In this document: positions 1,705 to 46,735 of the stretch, piece after piece
Layout: every line of letters starts with the position of its first letter
Numbering within the stretch: position 1 is the stretch's first letter
Origin: Streptomyces sp. 71268
GTDB lineage: Bacteria; Actinomycetota; Actinomycetes; Streptomycetales; Streptomycetaceae
Direction: 5' to 3'
Assembly (NCBI RefSeq): GCF_029392895.1
Contig: NZ_CP114200.1
Span: forward strand, 2,821,001-2,885,000
Length of the DNA: 64,000 bases
Made by a program: the position numbers and the translations under genes
The notes under the pieces: model-generated
What the model saw: the letters and a program-made list of their open reading frames with translations, nothing else
What the model was told of the DNA's origin: nothing
Database searches by the model: none

Positions 1705-2628
1705 TCAGCGGGGGCTGCCGCCCAGGTCCGCCCCGGCGCCGGTCAGCGGCGTCGACTGGCTGGCCGGGTGCGAGGGGACGTCCATCTGGGTGGGCGCCGG
1801 GGCCACCTGCCGCTCGCGCGCCTCGGGCTGACCGGCTGGCGAACGGGCCGCCAGCGACAGCACCGGATGGAGCAGCGGCGGTAGCGCGCTGCCCATCGAG
1901 TGCGGCGGCGCCTCGTGCGCGCGCGGCCGCACGCCGGGGTGGGTGGTCGCGGTGGGCGGCGCCGTGAGGGGCAGGCCGGTGCGCGGGTCGAGCTGCGCCG
2001 AGCGCTCGCCACTGGCCGAGAAGAACCCCATCGACCGGCGGGCGTTCTCCTGCGCCCCGGCCCAGGTGCGGTCCCCGCCGTCCGTACGCAGCGGCGTGGT
2101 CGCGGTGCCGTTGCCCTCACCCCGGCCACCGGGCGAATCCACCGCGGCGTCCAGGGGCAGCGCACCGCCGAGCGCGACGGCGGCCAGTGACACGGCGCCG
2201 GCCGCGGCGAAGGCGAACCGCCTGCTGCGGGGCAGCGAGCGGTCCACCTCGTGTATCCGGAAGCCGCGCTCACGAGGGGTCGGGGCACTCGCCGGCAGGA
2301 ACGCGAACGTTTCCTCGCGCGGGTCAAAAGGGTCCCGGTCGCGCGCCGGGCCGTCGAGCGGGGAGCGCTCGTCGTCGCCGGTGAGCGTGCCGGCGGGCAG
2401 GTTCTGGAGCCGCGCGAGGAACCCCTCGGACGGCGGGGGCGGCGCCGCCTGGGCGAACATGTTCTTCAGCCGTCGCTGTTCGTCGGCCTCCGCCTTGCAG
2501 CGGGGACACGTCGCCAGGTGCGCGAGCACCCGCTCGCGCGCATCATGTCCCAACTCGCCGTCGACCAGTGCCGCGAGGCGGTCGCCGAGGTGCTGCTCGG
2601 CGGGGGACTGACCGCCTGATCCGGTCAC
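1705..2628 (-). CDS. zinc-binding (ZAS) anti-sigma factor, membrane-anchored
   Basis: This 307-residue protein starts with a GTG that overlaps the stop of the upstream sigma gene (GTGA), so the two are translationally coupled. Residues about 10-60 form a zinc-associated anti-sigma domain with the H-x3-C-x2-C signature (HLATCPRC). A single hydrophobic segment sits near residues 135-157, followed by an Ala/Pro-rich extracytoplasmic tail. Such proteins hold a cognate ECF sigma factor inactive until an envelope or redox signal releases it. The sigma-anti-sigma-protease order matches SigE-RseA-HtrA of Mycobacterium tuberculosis, and RseA-like control is the most likely role. The tail is longer than in the mycobacterial protein and shows no recognised domain. 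The 210 bases to the next gene hold nothing obvious. Confidence 0.88.
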
Positions 2629-3446
2629 GCGATCCCTACCTCCCCGCTGAGCCCCGGCGCGGCCGGGGACACCGAGGCGACCGCGCGCTGCTCAGCGCGG
2701 GCCGATGGGGAACGGTGCTGGAGGGCCTTGCGCAGGTGCGACCGACCGCGGTGGATGCGGCTGCGCACCGTGCCGAGCTTGACGCCGAGCGTCGCGGCGA
2801 TCTCCTCGTACGAGAGGCCCTCGATGTCGCAGAGCACCACGGCGGCCCGGAACTCCGGCGCGAGGGTGTCCAGCGCCTGCTGGACGTCGGCGTCGAAGTG
2901 GGTGTCGTTGAAGTGCTGCTGCGGGGAGGGCTCGCGGCTGGGCAGCCGCTCGGCCGCGTCGTCGCCGAGCGCGTCGAAGCGGATGCGCTGCCGGCGGCGG
3001 ACCATGTCCAGGAACAGGTTGGTCGTGATGCGGTGCAGCCAGCCCTCGAAGGTGCCCGGCGTGTACGTCGACAGGGAGCGGAAAACCCGGACGAACACTT
3101 CCTGGGTCAGGTCTTCGGCGTCGTGCTGGTTACCAGTGAGACGGTAAGCGAGGCGATAGACCCGTGCGCTGTGGGTGCTGACGATCTCCTCCCAGGTGGG
3201 AGGGGTCCACGCCTGCGAATCCGCATCGGTGGCGAAAGTCGCGGTAGCTGCGGATTCGGTAGTGCGGAAACGGTCAGCGGTGTTTGTCACGGATTTCGGC
3301 TCGTCCGTCGGCCCGCGAAAGCGCCGCAGCACTCCTCGGCCACCGGTCGCAGCCGCACCTCCCCTGTCGGCTCTGGTGGTCTCCAGTAGAGCCCCTACCA
3401 TATCCACCTCGCCCGTTAGCTCCGGATAAGCAATATTGACCTGCAT
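2625..3446 (-). CDS. ECF RNA polymerase sigma factor (SigE-type by gene order)
   Basis: This 273-residue sigma-70-family factor of ECF type carries only regions 2 and 4. Region 2 includes [16 protein letters not shown], and region 4 ends in a helix-turn-helix ([19 protein letters not shown]). It directs RNA polymerase to stress promoters and is probably restrained by the anti-sigma factor encoded immediately downstream with a 4-base overlap. The ATG at 3446 lacks a good ribosome site. An internal ATG at 3401 has a GAGGTGG five bases upstream and may be the main start. Orthology with M. tuberculosis SigE is inferred from synteny with the neighbouring methyltransferase, anti-sigma and htrA genes. 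It should not be confused with S. coelicolor SigE of the CseBC system. Confidence 0.92.
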
Positions 3447-3492
3447 TTGGACTTGATCGTTCAGTGCTCGCGCGATCTATCCGTCCCCTTTC

Positions 3493-3518
3493 AACGCCCG
3501 GTCCCATCTGCGGGTTCC
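3493..3518 (-). promoter_or_regulatory. candidate ECF-type autoregulatory promoter for the sigma gene
   Basis: On the minus strand GGAACC (3518-3513) is followed after 16 bases by CGTT (3496-3493). This is the usual layout of ECF promoters (GGAAC, 16-17 bases, CGTT/CGTC). It lies about 47 bases upstream of the first possible start of the sigma gene, so the sigma factor may transcribe its own operon. The call is from motif and position only. Confidence 0.5.
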
Positions 3519-3542
3519 CGAGCGCAGCGGATACAGTCACCG

Positions 3543-4217
3543 TTGCGTCAACTACGGGGACAGGAGAGGGCCATTACCGGCAACCGGCAGACGAGCTGGG
3601 CGTTCGCCGAGGCGTACGGCGTCGAGCACATCGACGACACAGCGCTGCGCTGGGCTCGCGAGCGGGCTCGGGAGGCGGGGCTGCGTTCGGTGTCCTCGGG
3701 CACGGGCGCCGCGCTGCGCCTGCTCGCCGCCACCGCCGACGCCAAGGCCGTGGCCGAGATCGGCACCGGGACCGGCGTCTCCGGCATCCACCTCCTGCAC
3801 GGCATGCGGCCCGACGGCGTCCTGACGACGGTGGACCTGGAGCCCGAGCGGCAGCAGTTCGCCCGGCAGGCGTTCCGCGCGGCGGGCTTCGCCGGGAACC
3901 GGGCCCGCTTCATCCCCGGCCGCGCGCTCGACGTGCTGCCCCGGCTCGCCGACGGCGGGTACGACCTCGTCTTCTGTGACGCGGATCGCGCCGAGTGCCT
4001 CGACTACCTCGCCGAATCGTTGCGCCTGCTACGCCCCGGCGGACTGGTCTGCTTCGAGGGCGTGTTCGCCGACGGCCGCACGGTGGAGTCGGCCGCCCAG
4101 CCGACGGAGGTGCTGCGGCTGCGCGAGCTGCTGCGCGCCGTGCGCGAGTCGACGGTGCTCCAGCCGTCCCTGCTCCCGGTGGGCGACGGTCTGCTGTGCG
4201 CGGTCAAGCGCGGCTGA
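3543..4217 (+). CDS. class I SAM-dependent O-methyltransferase
   Basis: This roughly 224-residue protein has the class I motif AEIGTGTGVSG and the Asp-containing motif VFCDADRAE typical of the catechol/caffeoyl-CoA O-methyltransferase-like family. It transfers a methyl group from SAM to an unidentified hydroxyl acceptor. No ATG fits well: I chose the TTG at 3543 because homology-like sequence begins near here and an ATG at 3447 would run through the divergent sigma promoter. The gene is transcribed away from the sigma-anti-sigma-htrA unit. The same divergent methyltransferase (Rv1220c) sits beside sigE in M. tuberculosis, which supports a conserved but undefined link with the stress regulon. 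Confidence 0.85.
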   Translation: MRQLRGQERAITGNRQTSWAFAEAYGVEHIDDTALRWARERAREAGLRSVSSGTGAALRLLAATADAKAVAEIGTGTGVSGIHLLHGMRPDGVLTTVDLEPERQQFARQAFRAAGFAGNRARFIPGRALDVLPRLADGGYDLVFCDADRAECLDYLAESLRLLRPGGLVCFEGVFADGRTVESAAQPTEVLRLRELLRAVRESTVLQPSLLPVGDGLLCAVKRG

Positions 4218-35622: not shown

Positions 35623-36765
35623 GTGAGCACTTCGACCCAGCTCCGCGAGACGTTGGCGGACAGCCTCACCGAGACCGGCGCACTCACGGACCCCGAGTGG
35701 CGAAGGGCCGTCAGCGCGGTGCCGCGTGATTTGTTCGCGGGGGCCTACTTCAGGCCGGTGCCGGGCACCGTACCGACCAGCTATCGACCTGTCCGCGAAG
35801 GCGACCCCGGATGGTTGGAGGGGATCTACTCCGACGAGACGCTGATCACCCAACTGGACGGGCTGACCCGCCCCGACGATGTGGCGGAGGGGGCCGCGAT
35901 CGGTTCCCCCTCCTCCTCGTCAACCCTGCCGTCTCTGGTGCTGCGCATGTGGCAACAGCTCGGCGTCGAAGCCGGTCACCGGGTGTTGGAGATCGGCACC
36001 GGCACCGGATACTCGACCGCCCTCGGCGCGCACCACCTCGGGGACGCCAATATCACCAGCATCGAATACGACCCTGTGGTCGGCGGTGCCGCCGCTGTGG
36101 CGCTCAGGGCGGCCGGCTTCGCACCACGGCTGATCATCGGTGACGGACTGCGCGGCGATCCGGACGGAGGCCCGTACGACCGACTGATCGCCACGTGCTC
36201 GGTCCGGTACGTCCCGCTGCCGTGGCTACACCAGGTCCGGCCGAGCGGGAAGATCCTCGTCACTCTCTCTGGTTGGAGTCTCGCCAACGCCCTCGTCTTG
36301 CTGGATGTGACCGGCCCCGGGGAGGCAACCGGTCGGTTCCTGCCCGGCTACACCAGCTTCATGATCGCCCGGCCGCACGACCGCCCGCCCCGGCCGGCGC
36401 TGGCGCTGCTGCCGGGAGACGAGCGCCCGAGCGAGATCGACCCGACGAAGCTCGACGACTGGACCGGAGGCTGGGTAGCGCAGCTCGCGGCACCGTCGGC
36501 CGAACGCCTGGGTACTGGCGCGGAACAGATCCTCTGGGACGTGTCCACCGGCTCACAGGCTCGGACGGCTCCCAGCCCTGATGGCGGCTGGACCGTCGTA
36601 CAGCGGGGTCCCGTCCGCCTGTGGGATCAGGTGGAGCGGGCCGTGGAGCAGTGGCAGGCCGCCGGCGAACCGCACCAGGAAGGGTTCGGCATCACGATCT
36701 CGCCCGCCGGTCAGCGGGTGTGGCTCGGCACCGAGGCCGGCCCCGGGTGGGATCTGCCGATCTGA
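35623..36765 (+). CDS. PIMT-like protein methyltransferase with C-terminal extension (RiPP-associated type)
   Basis: This 380-residue protein starts at a GTG. The N-terminal part has the protein-L-isoaspartate O-methyltransferase layout: YSDETLITQ, SSSSTLPSLVLRM and SAM motif I VLEIGTGTGYS at 121-131. A C-terminal extension of about 130 residues ends LWDQVERAVEQW and FGITISPAGQRVWLG. This architecture is typical of methyltransferases accompanying graspetides, lanthipeptides and imiditides in actinomycetes, where they methylate Asp to form aspartimide or isoaspartate. No ATP-grasp or cyclase gene is adjacent. The same architecture recurs at 45560. The only small frame before it is a 17-codon ORF (35573-35626) without a ribosome site. 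Confidence 0.82.
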   Translation: MSTSTQLRETLADSLTETGALTDPEWRRAVSAVPRDLFAGAYFRPVPGTVPTSYRPVREGDPGWLEGIYSDETLITQLDGLTRPDDVAEGAAIGSPSSSSTLPSLVLRMWQQLGVEAGHRVLEIGTGTGYSTALGAHHLGDANITSIEYDPVVGGAAAVALRAAGFAPRLIIGDGLRGDPDGGPYDRLIATCSVRYVPLPWLHQVRPSGKILVTLSGWSLANALVLLDVTGPGEATGRFLPGYTSFMIARPHDRPPRPALALLPGDERPSEIDPTKLDDWTGGWVAQLAAPSAERLGTGAEQILWDVSTGSQARTAPSPDGGWTVVQRGPVRLWDQVERAVEQWQAAGEPHQEGFGITISPAGQRVWLGTEAGPGWDLPI

Positions 36766-40353: not shown

Positions 40354-40563
40354 TTACGCGCCGCCGAAGTCCCCCGCCTTGACGCCTGCCACGAAGGCGT
40401 TCCACGCGGCCGGCTCGAAGGCCAGGGTCGGGCCGCTGGGGTCCTTCGAGTCCCGGACGGGCACGATGCCAGTGGAGGTCGCATGAGTAGGGGCCCACTC
40501 GATGCACTGCCCCTCGCCCGCGCTGTACGTGCTCTTGACCCATACCGGGCCGGTGCCGTTCAT
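40354..40563 (-). CDS. DUF397 domain protein
   Basis: This 69-residue protein shows the DUF397 signature: WVKSTYSAGEGQCIEWA near the start, VPVRDSKDPSGPTLAF in the middle and AWNAFVAGVKAGDF at the end. Such proteins are the small partners of XRE/DUF5753 regulators in Streptomyces, and some pairs control development or antibiotic production. The ATG overlaps the XRE stop (ATGA), so the two are coupled and co-transcribed. The pair behaves in reported cases like a toxin-antitoxin or regulator-modulator unit. The ribosome site lies inside the XRE coding end. Confidence 0.93.
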   Translation of the reverse strand: MNGTGPVWVKSTYSAGEGQCIEWAPTHATSTGIVPVRDSKDPSGPTLAFEPAAWNAFVAGVKAGDFGGA

Positions 40564-41384
40564 CTGCCGTGGTCCTCCCTGATCTCGCGCATCATCTCCA
40601 GCGACTCCGCTTCGGGGAGCGCCGCCATCCGTAGTCGGTCGAAATTGCCGACTGCGGAAGCCACCACGTCCGGCGCCTCGTCCACCTGCCCACCATGGGT
40701 GGGTGTCTCGGCGTACACGACGTGCGGCTTGCCTTCCAACGCAAGCAGCGTAAACGGCAGATGGGAGGGAGCGGCACCCGCTTTGTACGGCAACACCTGG
40801 AGGGTCACGTGGGGCGACCGTGCAAGCGCGATCAGGTGATCAAGCTGAGCGGCCATGACGGAGGCACCTCCCACGCAGGTGCGAAGCACCGCCTCATGCA
40901 TGATCACCCACAGCAGAGGCGGGTTCTCTCGCTCCAATACCGCCTGACGGCGCATGCGAAGTTCGACACGCGCTCTGATCTGGTCATCGGTCTCGCGTGG
41001 GAAGTGGGCGCGCATGACCGCCGCCGTGTAGTCCGGCGTTTGAAGCAGCCCCATGAGGAACGTGCAGGAGTAGTCGGTGACTCCCGACGCTGATTCCTCC
41101 AGCGAGATGTAGGGGACGAACCACGCTGGATGTCCCTGCTTGGCCAGCTTGTTCCGGAGCCTCCTGTACACCGCAGGAGTACCGACTACTCGATCCATGG
41201 CTATGGCGAACGCCTCCGACGCGAGCACGGTGCCGTTTTCCACCTTCGACACCTGGCTCTGCCCGAAGTGCAGCTCGTCCGCGAACCTCTCCTGCGACAT
41301 GGCCAGGGATTCGCGCAGCGCTCGCACCTCGTCACCGAAGTAGGCGGCGGCGCCCTTTGGCCGGGCGAGGATCTCCTCGTTCAT
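40560..41384 (-). CDS. XRE-family regulator with DUF5753 (Scr1-like)
   Basis: This 274-residue protein has an N-terminal helix-turn-helix (LRESLAMSQERFADELHFGQSQVSKVENG, about residues 24-52). A C-terminal DUF5753 domain begins near residue 95 (FLMGLLQTPDYTAAVMRA) and includes LRTCVGGASVMAAQLDHLI and VVYAETPTHGGQVDE. It is the DNA-binding partner of the coupled DUF397 protein. It is divergent from a three-gene operon across a 141-base gap that contains a perfect 7-base inverted repeat (41472-41490), a likely operator. The family is expanded in Streptomyces and usually regulates locally. Confidence 0.93.
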   Translation of the reverse strand: MNEEILARPKGAAAYFGDEVRALRESLAMSQERFADELHFGQSQVSKVENGTVLASEAFAIAMDRVVGTPAVYRRLRNKLAKQGHPAWFVPYISLEESASGVTDYSCTFLMGLLQTPDYTAAVMRAHFPRETDDQIRARVELRMRRQAVLERENPPLLWVIMHEAVLRTCVGGASVMAAQLDHLIALARSPHVTLQVLPYKAGAAPSHLPFTLLALEGKPHVVYAETPTHGGQVDEAPDVVASAVGNFDRLRMAALPEAESLEMMREIREDHGR

Positions 41385-43539: not shown

Positions 43540-44511
43540 TCAGCAAGCAGCCAGGGCGCGCCGTAACGCCTCCCGGTGTTCCCACGTCCAGGGCGCGTCC
43601 CGTAGCTCCGGGGGAAGCCCGGCGAGCCCCGCCGTGATGTGGTCCACCGCGTCCGCGTGACGGCCCAGCCCGAGATGCGCGAGGCCCATGTTCAGGCGGT
43701 TGAACTCCGGGGTGAGCCAGTAGGCCGTTTCCGGTGGGGGGAGGGAGGCCGCGGCGTCCGTCAGCCGTTCCGCGTCCTCGACCATGCGCAGGGCCTCGTC
43801 CCGTTCGCCCAGCTCCGCCATTCCGGCGGCGGCCTGCAACATGTCACCGAGCCGCTGGGCGGGGTGGGCGCCCGGCGTGCGAGCCGCGGCCGTGTACCAG
43901 CGGGCGACACCTACGGGCCTGCCTTGCTGGCGGGCGAGATAGCCCTTGAAGTTGAGGGCTTGCGCGGCCAGTGTCCCGTCCTGGATCTCGTCCGCCAACT
44001 CCACCGCCGTGTCGAGGAACGTGGTCGCGCGGGCATCCTGTCGGTCCTGGGCGAGCATCCACCCGCCGAACTGGACGAACTCCGACGCCACTGCCGTGAG
44101 CTGGTCGCGGTACGGGCCCCGGGCGCCCTTGAGCGTGCGGGTGACCACCCGTATCTGCACCAGGGTTGCCGGGATGATCGACTCTGGGCGCATCGCGTCG
44201 TCAAGCCGTCGGTAGGCGGCGAGCACGCCGGCCAACGCCTCCACCGTCCCGGCGTCCAGCCGGGAGGGGTTCGCAACGCTGCGGGACACCCGTGAGTCGC
44301 CGTCCGGGTCGAGCAACGTGTCCGCCAGCGCCCCACCGGTCGACAGGAGATCGTCCAGCGCTTCGGCGAGCCTGCGCGACGGCCGCTGCTTCCCGCCGAG
44401 GACGCGGGACAGATAGGCGGGGTCGTAGTGGGTGGCGCGGGCGGCGGCCTTTATCGAGTAACCGTTGTCGCGGAGAAGGCGGCGGGCGAGATCAGCGAAG
44501 TCGTCACGCAT
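43540..44511 (-). CDS. HTH regulator with TPR-like C-terminal domain
   Basis: This 323-residue protein has an N-terminal Cro/CI-type helix-turn-helix (NGYSIKAAARATHYDPAYLSRVLGGKQRPS, residues about 16-45). Helical repeats follow, including ALAGVLAAYRRLDDAM, TAVELADEIQDGTLAAQALNFKGYLARQQG, MLQAAAGMAELGERDEALRMVEDAERL and GLAHLGLGRHADAVDHI. Streptomyces has many such regulators; some respond to peptides in the manner of RRNPP proteins, which would fit the flanking peptide importers, but that link is inference only. It is the last of three regulators in this stretch. Confidence 0.85.
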   Translation of the reverse strand: MRDDFADLARRLLRDNGYSIKAAARATHYDPAYLSRVLGGKQRPSRRLAEALDDLLSTGGALADTLLDPDGDSRVSRSVANPSRLDAGTVEALAGVLAAYRRLDDAMRPESIIPATLVQIRVVTRTLKGARGPYRDQLTAVASEFVQFGGWMLAQDRQDARATTFLDTAVELADEIQDGTLAAQALNFKGYLARQQGRPVGVARWYTAAARTPGAHPAQRLGDMLQAAAGMAELGERDEALRMVEDAERLTDAAASLPPPETAYWLTPEFNRLNMGLAHLGLGRHADAVDHITAGLAGLPPELRDAPWTWEHREALRRALAAC

Positions 44512-45252: not shown

Positions 45253-45416
45253 GGGGCAACACAGTAGAAGCGGCCACCGACAGCACGTCACCGAGCCCGT
45301 TCATCGGCTCCGGCAGTACGAGGTGCCGCGCTACCAGCCCGCCGACTGAGATGCTCGACTACCCGGCCGCCAACAGGTCGACAGTCGAACCGACTTACTC
45401 ACTCGAGGAGTTGACC

Positions 45417-45563
45417 ATGGACGACAACACCCCACACGGCGGTGGCGGCGACGGAGGCGACGGTCTGCCGGGGCAGCCGTGGCCCGGTCCGCCCGCCCCG
45501 CCCACGCCGGACGGCGGGCCCGGCGTCCCCAATCCCCCCAAGAAGGCGGCGGACACGCCGTGA
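45417..45563 (+). CDS. small Asp-Gly/Pro-rich peptide, candidate RiPP precursor
   Basis: This 48-residue peptide starts at an ATG six bases after a strong GAGGAG site. A 70-residue form from 45351 has no ribosome site. Its composition is extreme: Gly, Pro and Asp make up most of it, with no Cys and no Ser. Three Asp-Gly pairs (residues 12-13, 15-16 and 32-33) are the classic sites where PIMT-type enzymes create aspartimide. The end is KKAADTP. Its stop overlaps the start of a PIMT-like methyltransferase (GTGA), so the two are translationally coupled. A role as the methyltransferase's substrate (imiditide-like precursor) is inferred, not proven; it could also be a non-functional leader. Confidence 0.68.
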   Translation: MDDNTPHGGGGDGGDGLPGQPWPGPPAPPTPDGGPGVPNPPKKAADTP

Positions 45564-46735
45564 CCGCGCACACCCATCGCGAGCGCTCCGGCCACGCCGA
45601 ACTCGGACGCCGCCTGGCCGCGGCGGGCGTCCTTGCCCCGGCCTGGGCCCCCGCCTTCGCGGACGTGCCCCGGGCGGCGTTTCTGCCCGAGGTCATGTGG
45701 CCCTTCGACATGGCGGCGGGCACCAGCGTGGCCGTCTCCCGGGTGGACGATCCGGATGCCTGGCAGGCGTACGCGGACGCGGACGTGCCCGTGGTCACCC
45801 AGTGGGACGACGGGGCGCACAGCGGCCGGGAGCCCGGGCGGGTGCCCACGTCCTCGGCGTCGATGCCGAGCGTGGTCTTCCGGATGCTGGCGGACCTGGG
45901 CGTACGCCCGGGTGACCGGGTGTTGGAGGTCGGCACCGGGACCGGGTGGAACGCGGCGCTGCTCGCGCACCGGGCCGGCGCGGGGAACGTCGTCAGCGTG
46001 GAGGTGGACGGCGCGGTGGCCGCGCGTGCGCGGGGCGCCCTGGAACGGTTCGGGGCCGGGGTGCGGGTGGTGCGCGGGGACGGCTACGCGGGGCACCGCG
46101 AAGGCGCGCCGTACGACCGGGTCATCGTCACCGCCGGGGTGCGGCGGGTCCCGTTCGCCTGGGTGCGGCAGACGCGGCCGGGCGGGCTGGTCGTCCTCCC
46201 CTGGGGGACCGACTACGGCAACGGTGACGGCGTCGCCCGCCTCACGGTCGCGCGGGATGGGCGGAGCGCGGCGGGGCCCTTCACCGGGCCCGTGGAGTTC
46301 ATGAAACTCCGGGCCCAGCGGTTGGCGCCGGTCGCGCACGGCGAGTACGTGACGGGCGGGCCGGAGGAACGGGACGCCTCGACCACGGAGCTGACGGAGG
46401 ACGCGTTTCTCGGGGAGCGGTTCGCGCCGCAGCGGTTCGCCGTCGGGCTGCGGGTGCCGCGCTGTCAGCACGTCGTCGCGGAGCGGCGGGACGGATCGCG
46501 GCCGGTGTGGTTCTACGGGCTCGACGATCGCTCGTGGGCGTGCGTGCTGTTCCGGGACGGTGCCGGCGCCCGGGTCTGGCAGTCGGGGCCGCGCCGGCTC
46601 TGGGACGAGGTCGAGGCCGCCTACCGGTGGTGGGAGAGCGAGGGCGGGCCGGGGCACGAGCGGTTCGGGCTGACCGTGACGGCCGACGGGCAGGCCGCCT
46701 GGCTGGACAGCCCGGACCGTTCCTGGCCCGTCTGA
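45560..46735 (+). CDS. PIMT-like protein methyltransferase with C-terminal extension, coupled to small peptide
   Basis: This 391-residue protein starts at a GTG in a GTGA overlap with the peptide gene. It has the PIMT core: PTSSASMPSVVFRML followed by SAM motif I VLEVGTGTGWN at 121-131, then VVSVEVDGAVAARAR and APYDRVIVTAGVRRVP. An extension of about 130 residues ends RRLWDEVEAAYRWWE and RFGLTVTADGQAAWLD. The same order and the same motif-I position occur in the homologue at 35623. In the families known to me, such enzymes methylate Asp side chains of RiPP precursors and so drive aspartimide formation. No cyclase, ATP-grasp or protease gene is adjacent; the gene ends 18 bases from convergent ABC operon B. 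Confidence 0.85.
   Translation: MTAHTHRERSGHAELGRRLAAAGVLAPAWAPAFADVPRAAFLPEVMWPFDMAAGTSVAVSRVDDPDAWQAYADADVPVVTQWDDGAHSGREPGRVPTSSASMPSVVFRMLADLGVRPGDRVLEVGTGTGWNAALLAHRAGAGNVVSVEVDGAVAARARGALERFGAGVRVVRGDGYAGHREGAPYDRVIVTAGVRRVPFAWVRQTRPGGLVVLPWGTDYGNGDGVARLTVARDGRSAAGPFTGPVEFMKLRAQRLAPVAHGEYVTGGPEERDASTTELTEDAFLGERFAPQRFAVGLRVPRCQHVVAERRDGSRPVWFYGLDDRSWACVLFRDGAGARVWQSGPRRLWDEVEAAYRWWESEGGPGHERFGLTVTADGQAAWLDSPDRSWPV

Follow-up and report, generated by a model that had tools for sequence, protein, structure and literature searches.

A two-gene locus of Streptomyces sp. 71268 predicted to encode a type I pamtide (imiditide) precursor and its methyltransferase

The window is a 64,000-nucleotide stretch of the Streptomyces sp. 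71268 genome (contig NZ_CP114200.1, positions 2,821,001 to 2,885,000 of the forward strand), and all coordinates below are positions in it. A small peptide gene directly followed by a methyltransferase gene was predicted as a type I pamtide (imiditide) operon, with a probability of about 0.87. The pair is most likely a new member of an already described peptide class, within a subclass that is conserved. The features of the pair are as follows.

45405..45410, forward strand: ribosome binding site GAGGAG of the precursor gene, 6 nt ahead of the ATG, read directly
45417..45563, forward strand: gene of the 48-residue precursor peptide, type I pamtide subclass A (..PDGGPGVPNPPK..)
45459..45461, forward strand: codon of Asp15, second candidate site, from the 36-row alignment
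45510..45512, forward strand: codon of Asp32 (P-D-G-G-P), predicted modified residue, assigned by conservation
45560..46735, forward strand: L-aspartyl O-methyltransferase (PAMT) resembling protein-L-isoaspartate O-methyltransferase (PIMT), 391 residues, GTG start
46325..46732, forward strand: C-terminal extension of the PAMT, approximately residues 256-391, with a counterpart in the PIMT of T. maritima
46631..46651, forward strand: WxxxGxP motif, W358..P364 of the PAMT, from the translation

The precursor sequence is MDDNTPHGGGGDGGDGLPGQPWPGPPAPPTPDGGPGVPNPPKKAADTP. It contains 12 Gly, 14 Pro, 6 Asp and 2 Lys, but neither Cys nor Ser, and its Asp-Gly pairs begin at D12, D15 and D32. A conserved acidic N-terminus and a basic C-terminus are described for type I precursors; the window peptide starts with MDD and carries KK near the end, followed by the tail AADTP, and subclass A relatives end in PPK or similar. 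The TGA of the precursor gene (45561-45563) and the GTG of the PAMT gene (45560-45562) share four nucleotides, i.e., GTGA. The coordinates, the length, the missing Cys and Ser, the three Asp-Gly pairs, the good ribosome binding site and the overlap had all been given in a preliminary description of the locus and were confirmed. The same description considered the composition unlike that of known precursors. This was wrong; described type I precursors are approximately 45 residues long, and Gly (17.3%), Pro (16.8%) and Asp (10.2%) are abundant in them.

No family model in Pfam or NCBIfam matched the precursor, and the motif PDGGPGVPNPP had no match in the searched literature. The protein search with the precursor found 26 relatives at E ≤1, 24 of them at E ≤1e-3, and all relatives with an organism name were from Streptomyces. 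A 36-row alignment was built from selected sequences, i.e., 23 of the 26 search relatives, the window peptide and 12 locus peptides (one repeated), with subclass D absent. P18, G19, P21, P25, P29, P31 and D32 were invariant in it, and D15, P28 and G33 were conserved in at least 90% of the rows. Of the three Asp-Gly pairs of the preliminary description, good conservation was seen for D32-G33 only; D15 is followed by a variable residue, and Asp12 is not conserved.

The ratio of non-synonymous to synonymous changes per site (pN/pS) was calculated from the 120 pairs formed by 16 distinct sequences of subclass A. Over the 15 codons free of the pattern by which these sequences were selected, it was 0.285 in frame, and the two shifted frames gave 2.1 and 2.8. 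A value of 0.177 over all 26 codons was discarded as biased, since the selecting pattern fixes 11 of the 26. Compared with the S. buecherae peptide, changes amounted to 9.5 over 38.7 synonymous sites and to 10.5 over 105.3 non-synonymous sites. The peptide core is identical in these two, the enzymes are 92-93% identical, and the 60 nt ahead of the start diverge, save around the ribosome site. Judged from these sequences, purifying selection acts on the precursor open reading frame (ORF), which is a genuine gene and conserved.

Relatives of the PAMT at E ≤1e-60 were found in at least 83 of 295 Streptomyces genomes. The loci examined are part of the matches listed (30 and 36 more), with four extra regions added for precursor matches. 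The family sample comprised 75 distinct PAMTs, including that of the window, with at least 45% identity and the N-terminus present. Copies (L009, L043 and L058, of L006, L010 and L042), partial or broken genes (L098, L102 and L105), further identical C-termini, and matches below 45% identity or beginning past residue 30 were left out; near-identical enzymes (e.g., L083, L085 and L086) were retained. A precursor-like ORF ending -110 to +6 nt from the match start accompanied 65 of the 75 PAMTs, the window's included. By the same procedure, no subclass was assigned at any of 2000 points picked at random in the control DNA. Conservation of the small ORF had been set beforehand as the test of the preliminary description, and this pairing, together with the 24 relatives above, bears it out. 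By identity of the PAMT to that of the window, a precursor was present at 23/24 loci at ≥60%, 20/24 at 55-60%, 11/15 at 50-55% and 11/12 at 45-50%. The offset of exactly 4 nt, i.e., the stop-start overlap, was found in 19 of the 26 rows with a match from residue 1 and a non-negative offset (3 of the 19 are duplicates). In the reverse direction, a precursor-profile search gave 37 matches in 31 of the 295 genomes, and 35 of them adjoin a PAMT or part of one by coordinates. The matches in G181 and G260 were rejected as chance, with no methyltransferase there and an unlikely reading.

The 65 precursors were divided into four subclasses by regular expressions drawn up after the peptides had been inspected: A (..PDGGPGVPNPP.., 16), B (..GDG.HRK ends, 31), C (..PDGGP[KR].., 5) and D (..SDEGGNTNDG.., 13). 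On a quick PAMT tree of 73 rows, built with no bootstrap, the subclass changed 5 times vs 28.9 for shuffled labels. Subclass D peptides (e.g., L088, L090-L097 and L101) mostly read ..DDSDSGNKHGGGGSDEGGNTNDGQGPADG[KR], are very alike across species and have no P-D-G core; their PAMTs are 47-50% identical to that of the window. At L066 (G090), tandem A and B precursors lie upstream of a single PAMT. L068 has a subclass A precursor with a B-clade PAMT, and its close sisters L037, L038 and L070 have no precursor, for which a precursor swap or loss is possible.

The PAMT matched Pfam PCMT at 7.3e-27. In the AlphaFold2 model, the C-terminal extension had a predicted local distance difference test (pLDDT) score of 93.5, and the PIMT of T. 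maritima (1dl5) was aligned to residues 11..387 over 306 residues. The enzyme is thus predicted to be a PIMT core with a C-terminal domain like that of the T. maritima PIMT, in agreement with the extension noted in the preliminary description. The WxxxGxP motif, which is named in PMC13001092, lies within the last 60 residues of 64 of the 75 family members, including the window's enzyme. A correlation of enzyme charge with precursor tail charge had been expected. It was weak and confounded by relatedness, and therefore no claim on charge is made.

These results bear on another explanation of the small ORF, i.e., a translated leader which tunes or couples expression of a protein-repair PIMT and is not a substrate, its sequence being irrelevant. 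The stop-start overlap and the good ribosome binding site would suit a leader, canonical PIMTs mend isoaspartate of damaged proteins, and the ORF is dispensable in 8 of the 75 family members. However, the in-frame pN/pS of the free codons, the conserved P-D-G core, the congruence of subclass and enzyme, and the C-terminal domain of the type found with ribosomally synthesized and post-translationally modified peptides (RiPPs) speak against a leader. The leader is considered highly improbable.

The pair was assigned to type I pamtides because its sequence-level features match the published ones. Type I pamtides are equated with imiditides by Zhu and Link 2026 (PMC13001092), where 1414 members are reported, mostly from Streptomyces and Actinomadura. 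The described systems, SpaA-SpaM of S. sparsogenes and NmaA-NmaM of Nonomuraea maritima, have the same two-gene layout. As in them, the window's Streptomyces precursor is rich in Gly, Pro and Asp, with a conserved Asp and without CxxCxGxG motifs, the PIMT homologue has a C-terminal extension of more than 100 residues with WxxxGxP, and a cyclase is absent. All sequence-level type I features tested were found except a clearly basic C-terminus; the subclass A tail PDGGPGVPNPPK is not a strongly basic end. In addition, the candidate Asp of the window precedes Gly, whereas that of NmaA precedes His. The genome of S. sparsogenes itself encodes two pairs, one of subclass A and one of subclass B, with enzymes that share 67% and 60% identity, respectively, with that of the window.

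Three other families share parts of this organization. Type II pamtides (cysimiditides, FcaA-FcaM) also consist of two genes with a PAMT and an Asp-Gly target, but they need a zinc ribbon of four Cys (CxxCxGxG twice); the window peptide has no Cys and is not type II. The maturation methyltransferases of ATP-grasp (graspetide) systems belong to NCBIfam TIGR04188, which the window's PAMT also matches. Unlike in graspetide systems, the score is below the curated cut-off, and no ATP-grasp, LanB/LanC or lasso enzyme was detected by Pfam scan in the 19 neighbouring genes and ORFs (34-59 kb); for these neighbours, the preliminary statement on missing ATP-grasp, lanthipeptide and lasso genes holds. 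Canonical Pcm lacks the extra C-terminal domain and the paired precursor gene. Conservation and the match of features thus agree with the earlier proposal of an imiditide-like precursor modified by a PIMT-type enzyme with no cyclase.

Several points weigh against the type I assignment or its details. The TIGR04188 score is 308 bits, below the cut-off of 380. Eight of the 75 PAMTs have no precursor, including one of S. noursei at 67% identity to the window's (L039, no precursor in 420 nt upstream), and two more are unclear. The P-D-G site is not family-wide; the 13 subclass D members lack it and one subclass B member has P-N-G. D15 is almost as conserved as D32 in the alignment. The literature emphasizes a strongly basic C-terminus, of which the window peptide shows little (KK and then AADTP). 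Finally, no peptidase or exporter gene lies within the pair.

P-D-[GST] was found in 51 of the 65 paired precursors and in every A and C member. P-D-G accounts for 47 (16/16 of A, 5/5 of C and 26/31 of B), and P-D-[ST] for four more. By conservation, Asp32 is the best candidate for the modified residue and Asp15 the second. In the proposed mechanism, the ribosome would make the 48-residue precursor and, through the stop-start overlap, the methyltransferase alongside. The PAMT would bind the linear precursor via its extra C-terminal domain and methylate the Asp32 side chain using S-adenosylmethionine. The methyl ester would close spontaneously onto the nitrogen of the next Gly to give an aspartimide (-18 Da), which may partly hydrolyse to isoaspartate. 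In the work of Lee et al., SpaM acts on linear SpaA and gives +14 and -18 Da species. The present analysis covers the structure and conservation of the genes, their pairing, the family of the enzyme and its predicted fold, whereas the reaction from aspartate methylation to aspartimide and what the C-terminal domain does are proposed from the literature on relatives.

As for its role, the product could be secreted and have antimicrobial or membrane activity, with the regulators around such loci merely controlling expression. RiPPs are often bioactive, a 2026 review suggests membrane interaction of strongly positive imiditides, and an operon of an oligopeptide ATP-binding cassette (ABC) transporter lies convergent, downstream of the pair. 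However, with 6 Asp and 2 Lys the window peptide does not carry a strong positive charge, no hydrophobic N-terminal stretch was seen in it by eye, and a dedicated exporter or protease is absent from the pair. The transporter-ATPase cluster was present at only 6 of 54 loci, including those of the window and S. buecherae. Such a function is conceivable, though doubtful.

Two further genes lie upstream of the pair.

43540..44511, reverse strand: neighbouring regulator, HTH_31 and a helical-repeat superhelix resembling tetratricopeptide repeats (TPR), 323 residues
44677..45252, reverse strand: divergent gene between the regulator and the precursor, 191 residues, without a Pfam match

The flanking XRE-type regulator had been missed in the preliminary description. 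The neighbourhoods of 54 PAMT loci, that of the window included, were compared over up to 6 kb in both directions; 51 loci remained after three near-duplicates were dropped. As controls, 40 windows 60 kb off on the same contigs were taken from 23 genomes; short contigs had no room. Three XRE-type regulator families were named post hoc from the loci, with case and control genes clustered together, i.e., HTH_31 with DUF5753 (WhiJ-type), TPR proteins of approximately 300-480 residues, partly with a helix-turn-helix (HTH), and HTH_31 proteins of approximately 400 residues. Such regulators were found within 3.5 kb upstream at 32 of 51 loci vs 2 of 40 controls (Fisher 3.9e-9). Counted by gene midpoint, the numbers were 31/51 vs 2/40 in this zone, 4/51 vs 1/40 further upstream and 6/51 vs 1/40 downstream.

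The upstream proteins (156 vs 98) were also scanned with Pfam, independently of these families and with a tally of the 25 commonest Pfam families. This gave HTH_31 22 vs 3 (p 0.004), DUF5753 14 vs 2 and DUF397 13 vs 2. Counted by locus within 6.1 kb, DUF397 alone showed no significant enrichment (14/54 vs 5/40, p 0.13). In the complete genome of Streptomyces sp. 71268, an HTH_31 match is located less than 3 kb from 6 of the 10 TIGR04188-like genes of full length. Random places gave an expectation of 0.77, and none of 20,000 draws reached 6; the 100 HTH_31 places used are among the matches listed, two of them below the cut-off. As far as the main texts of two papers go, this enrichment is new. 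It suggests a regulatory role for pamtides, against which some regulator-flanked loci without a precursor have to be weighed.

It was also considered whether the pair could be a regulatory device, in which a nearby XRE-family regulator (WhiJ/DUF5753, HTH-TPR) would be bound or antagonized by the peptide, modified or not, and slow aspartimide hydrolysis would possibly serve as a timer. This would be an add-on to the pamtide chemistry and not its alternative. The helical-repeat model of the window regulator matched Rap and PlcR, and also other TPR proteins. It may be compared with the RRNPP-type peptide-pheromone regulators, which consist of an HTH and a TPR superhelix that binds a small peptide encoded nearby. 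Relatives of this regulator showed no sign of a pamtide-specific location, and its adjacency to the pair may be coincidental. The neighbourhood weakly points to a link between the role of the pair and the XRE-type regulators, and the device is rated rather unlikely for this locus. Extended to the whole class, type I pamtides would be regulatory peptides and not antibiotics, their operons wired to XRE-family regulators (WhiJ/DUF5753 and HTH-TPR types), with the peptide or its aspartimide or isoaspartate form as ligand or antagonist and aspartimide hydrolysis setting the timing, and where no peptide gene is present the PAMT would target a protein of the regulator module. This general form is unlikely, but if true, it would be the first biological function for the pamtide class, and the reproducible XRE-type tie is a concrete, testable lead on it.

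Other observations were made around the PAMT genes. A WhiJ-type regulator (HTH_31 with DUF5753; 40560-41384, reverse strand), with a DUF397-family gene beside it, lies approximately 4 kb upstream of the pair. No paper joining 'isoaspartate' and 'DUF397' was found in the searched literature. The divergent intergenic region was inspected for repeats and gave nothing convincing. At L040, L108, L110, L112 and L141, a small ORF of the same direction with the motifs C..C and RRHPxH immediately precedes the precursor, approximately 270-380 nt upstream of the PAMT. This Cys-containing ORF was rejected as a recurrent feature, with the motif at only 5/51 loci and 0/40 controls.

A second TIGR04188 gene, also missed in the preliminary description, was found at 35623-36765 (forward strand), 9 kb upstream of the pair. 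It scored 443 bits, over the cut-off, and is flanked by a gene of an oligopeptide ABC transporter and by one of a further methyltransferase; a hidden Markov model of the peptide found no precursor for it. Elsewhere in the own genome, three more pamtide-like pairs were found (L005/L126, L007/L190 and L187). One is of subclass B and adjoins DUF397 and WhiJ-type genes, and the precursors of the others end in ..GTHRKDDGDS and ..SGNRRK. The paralogues L001 and L002 come, by eye, after the end of an apparent ATP-grasp gene. At L186, the PAMT (2501-3562) has HTH_31 genes on both sides and no pamtide precursor was seen; its match starts, by eye, approximately 15 codons past an apparent DUF397 protein, which might itself be the substrate.
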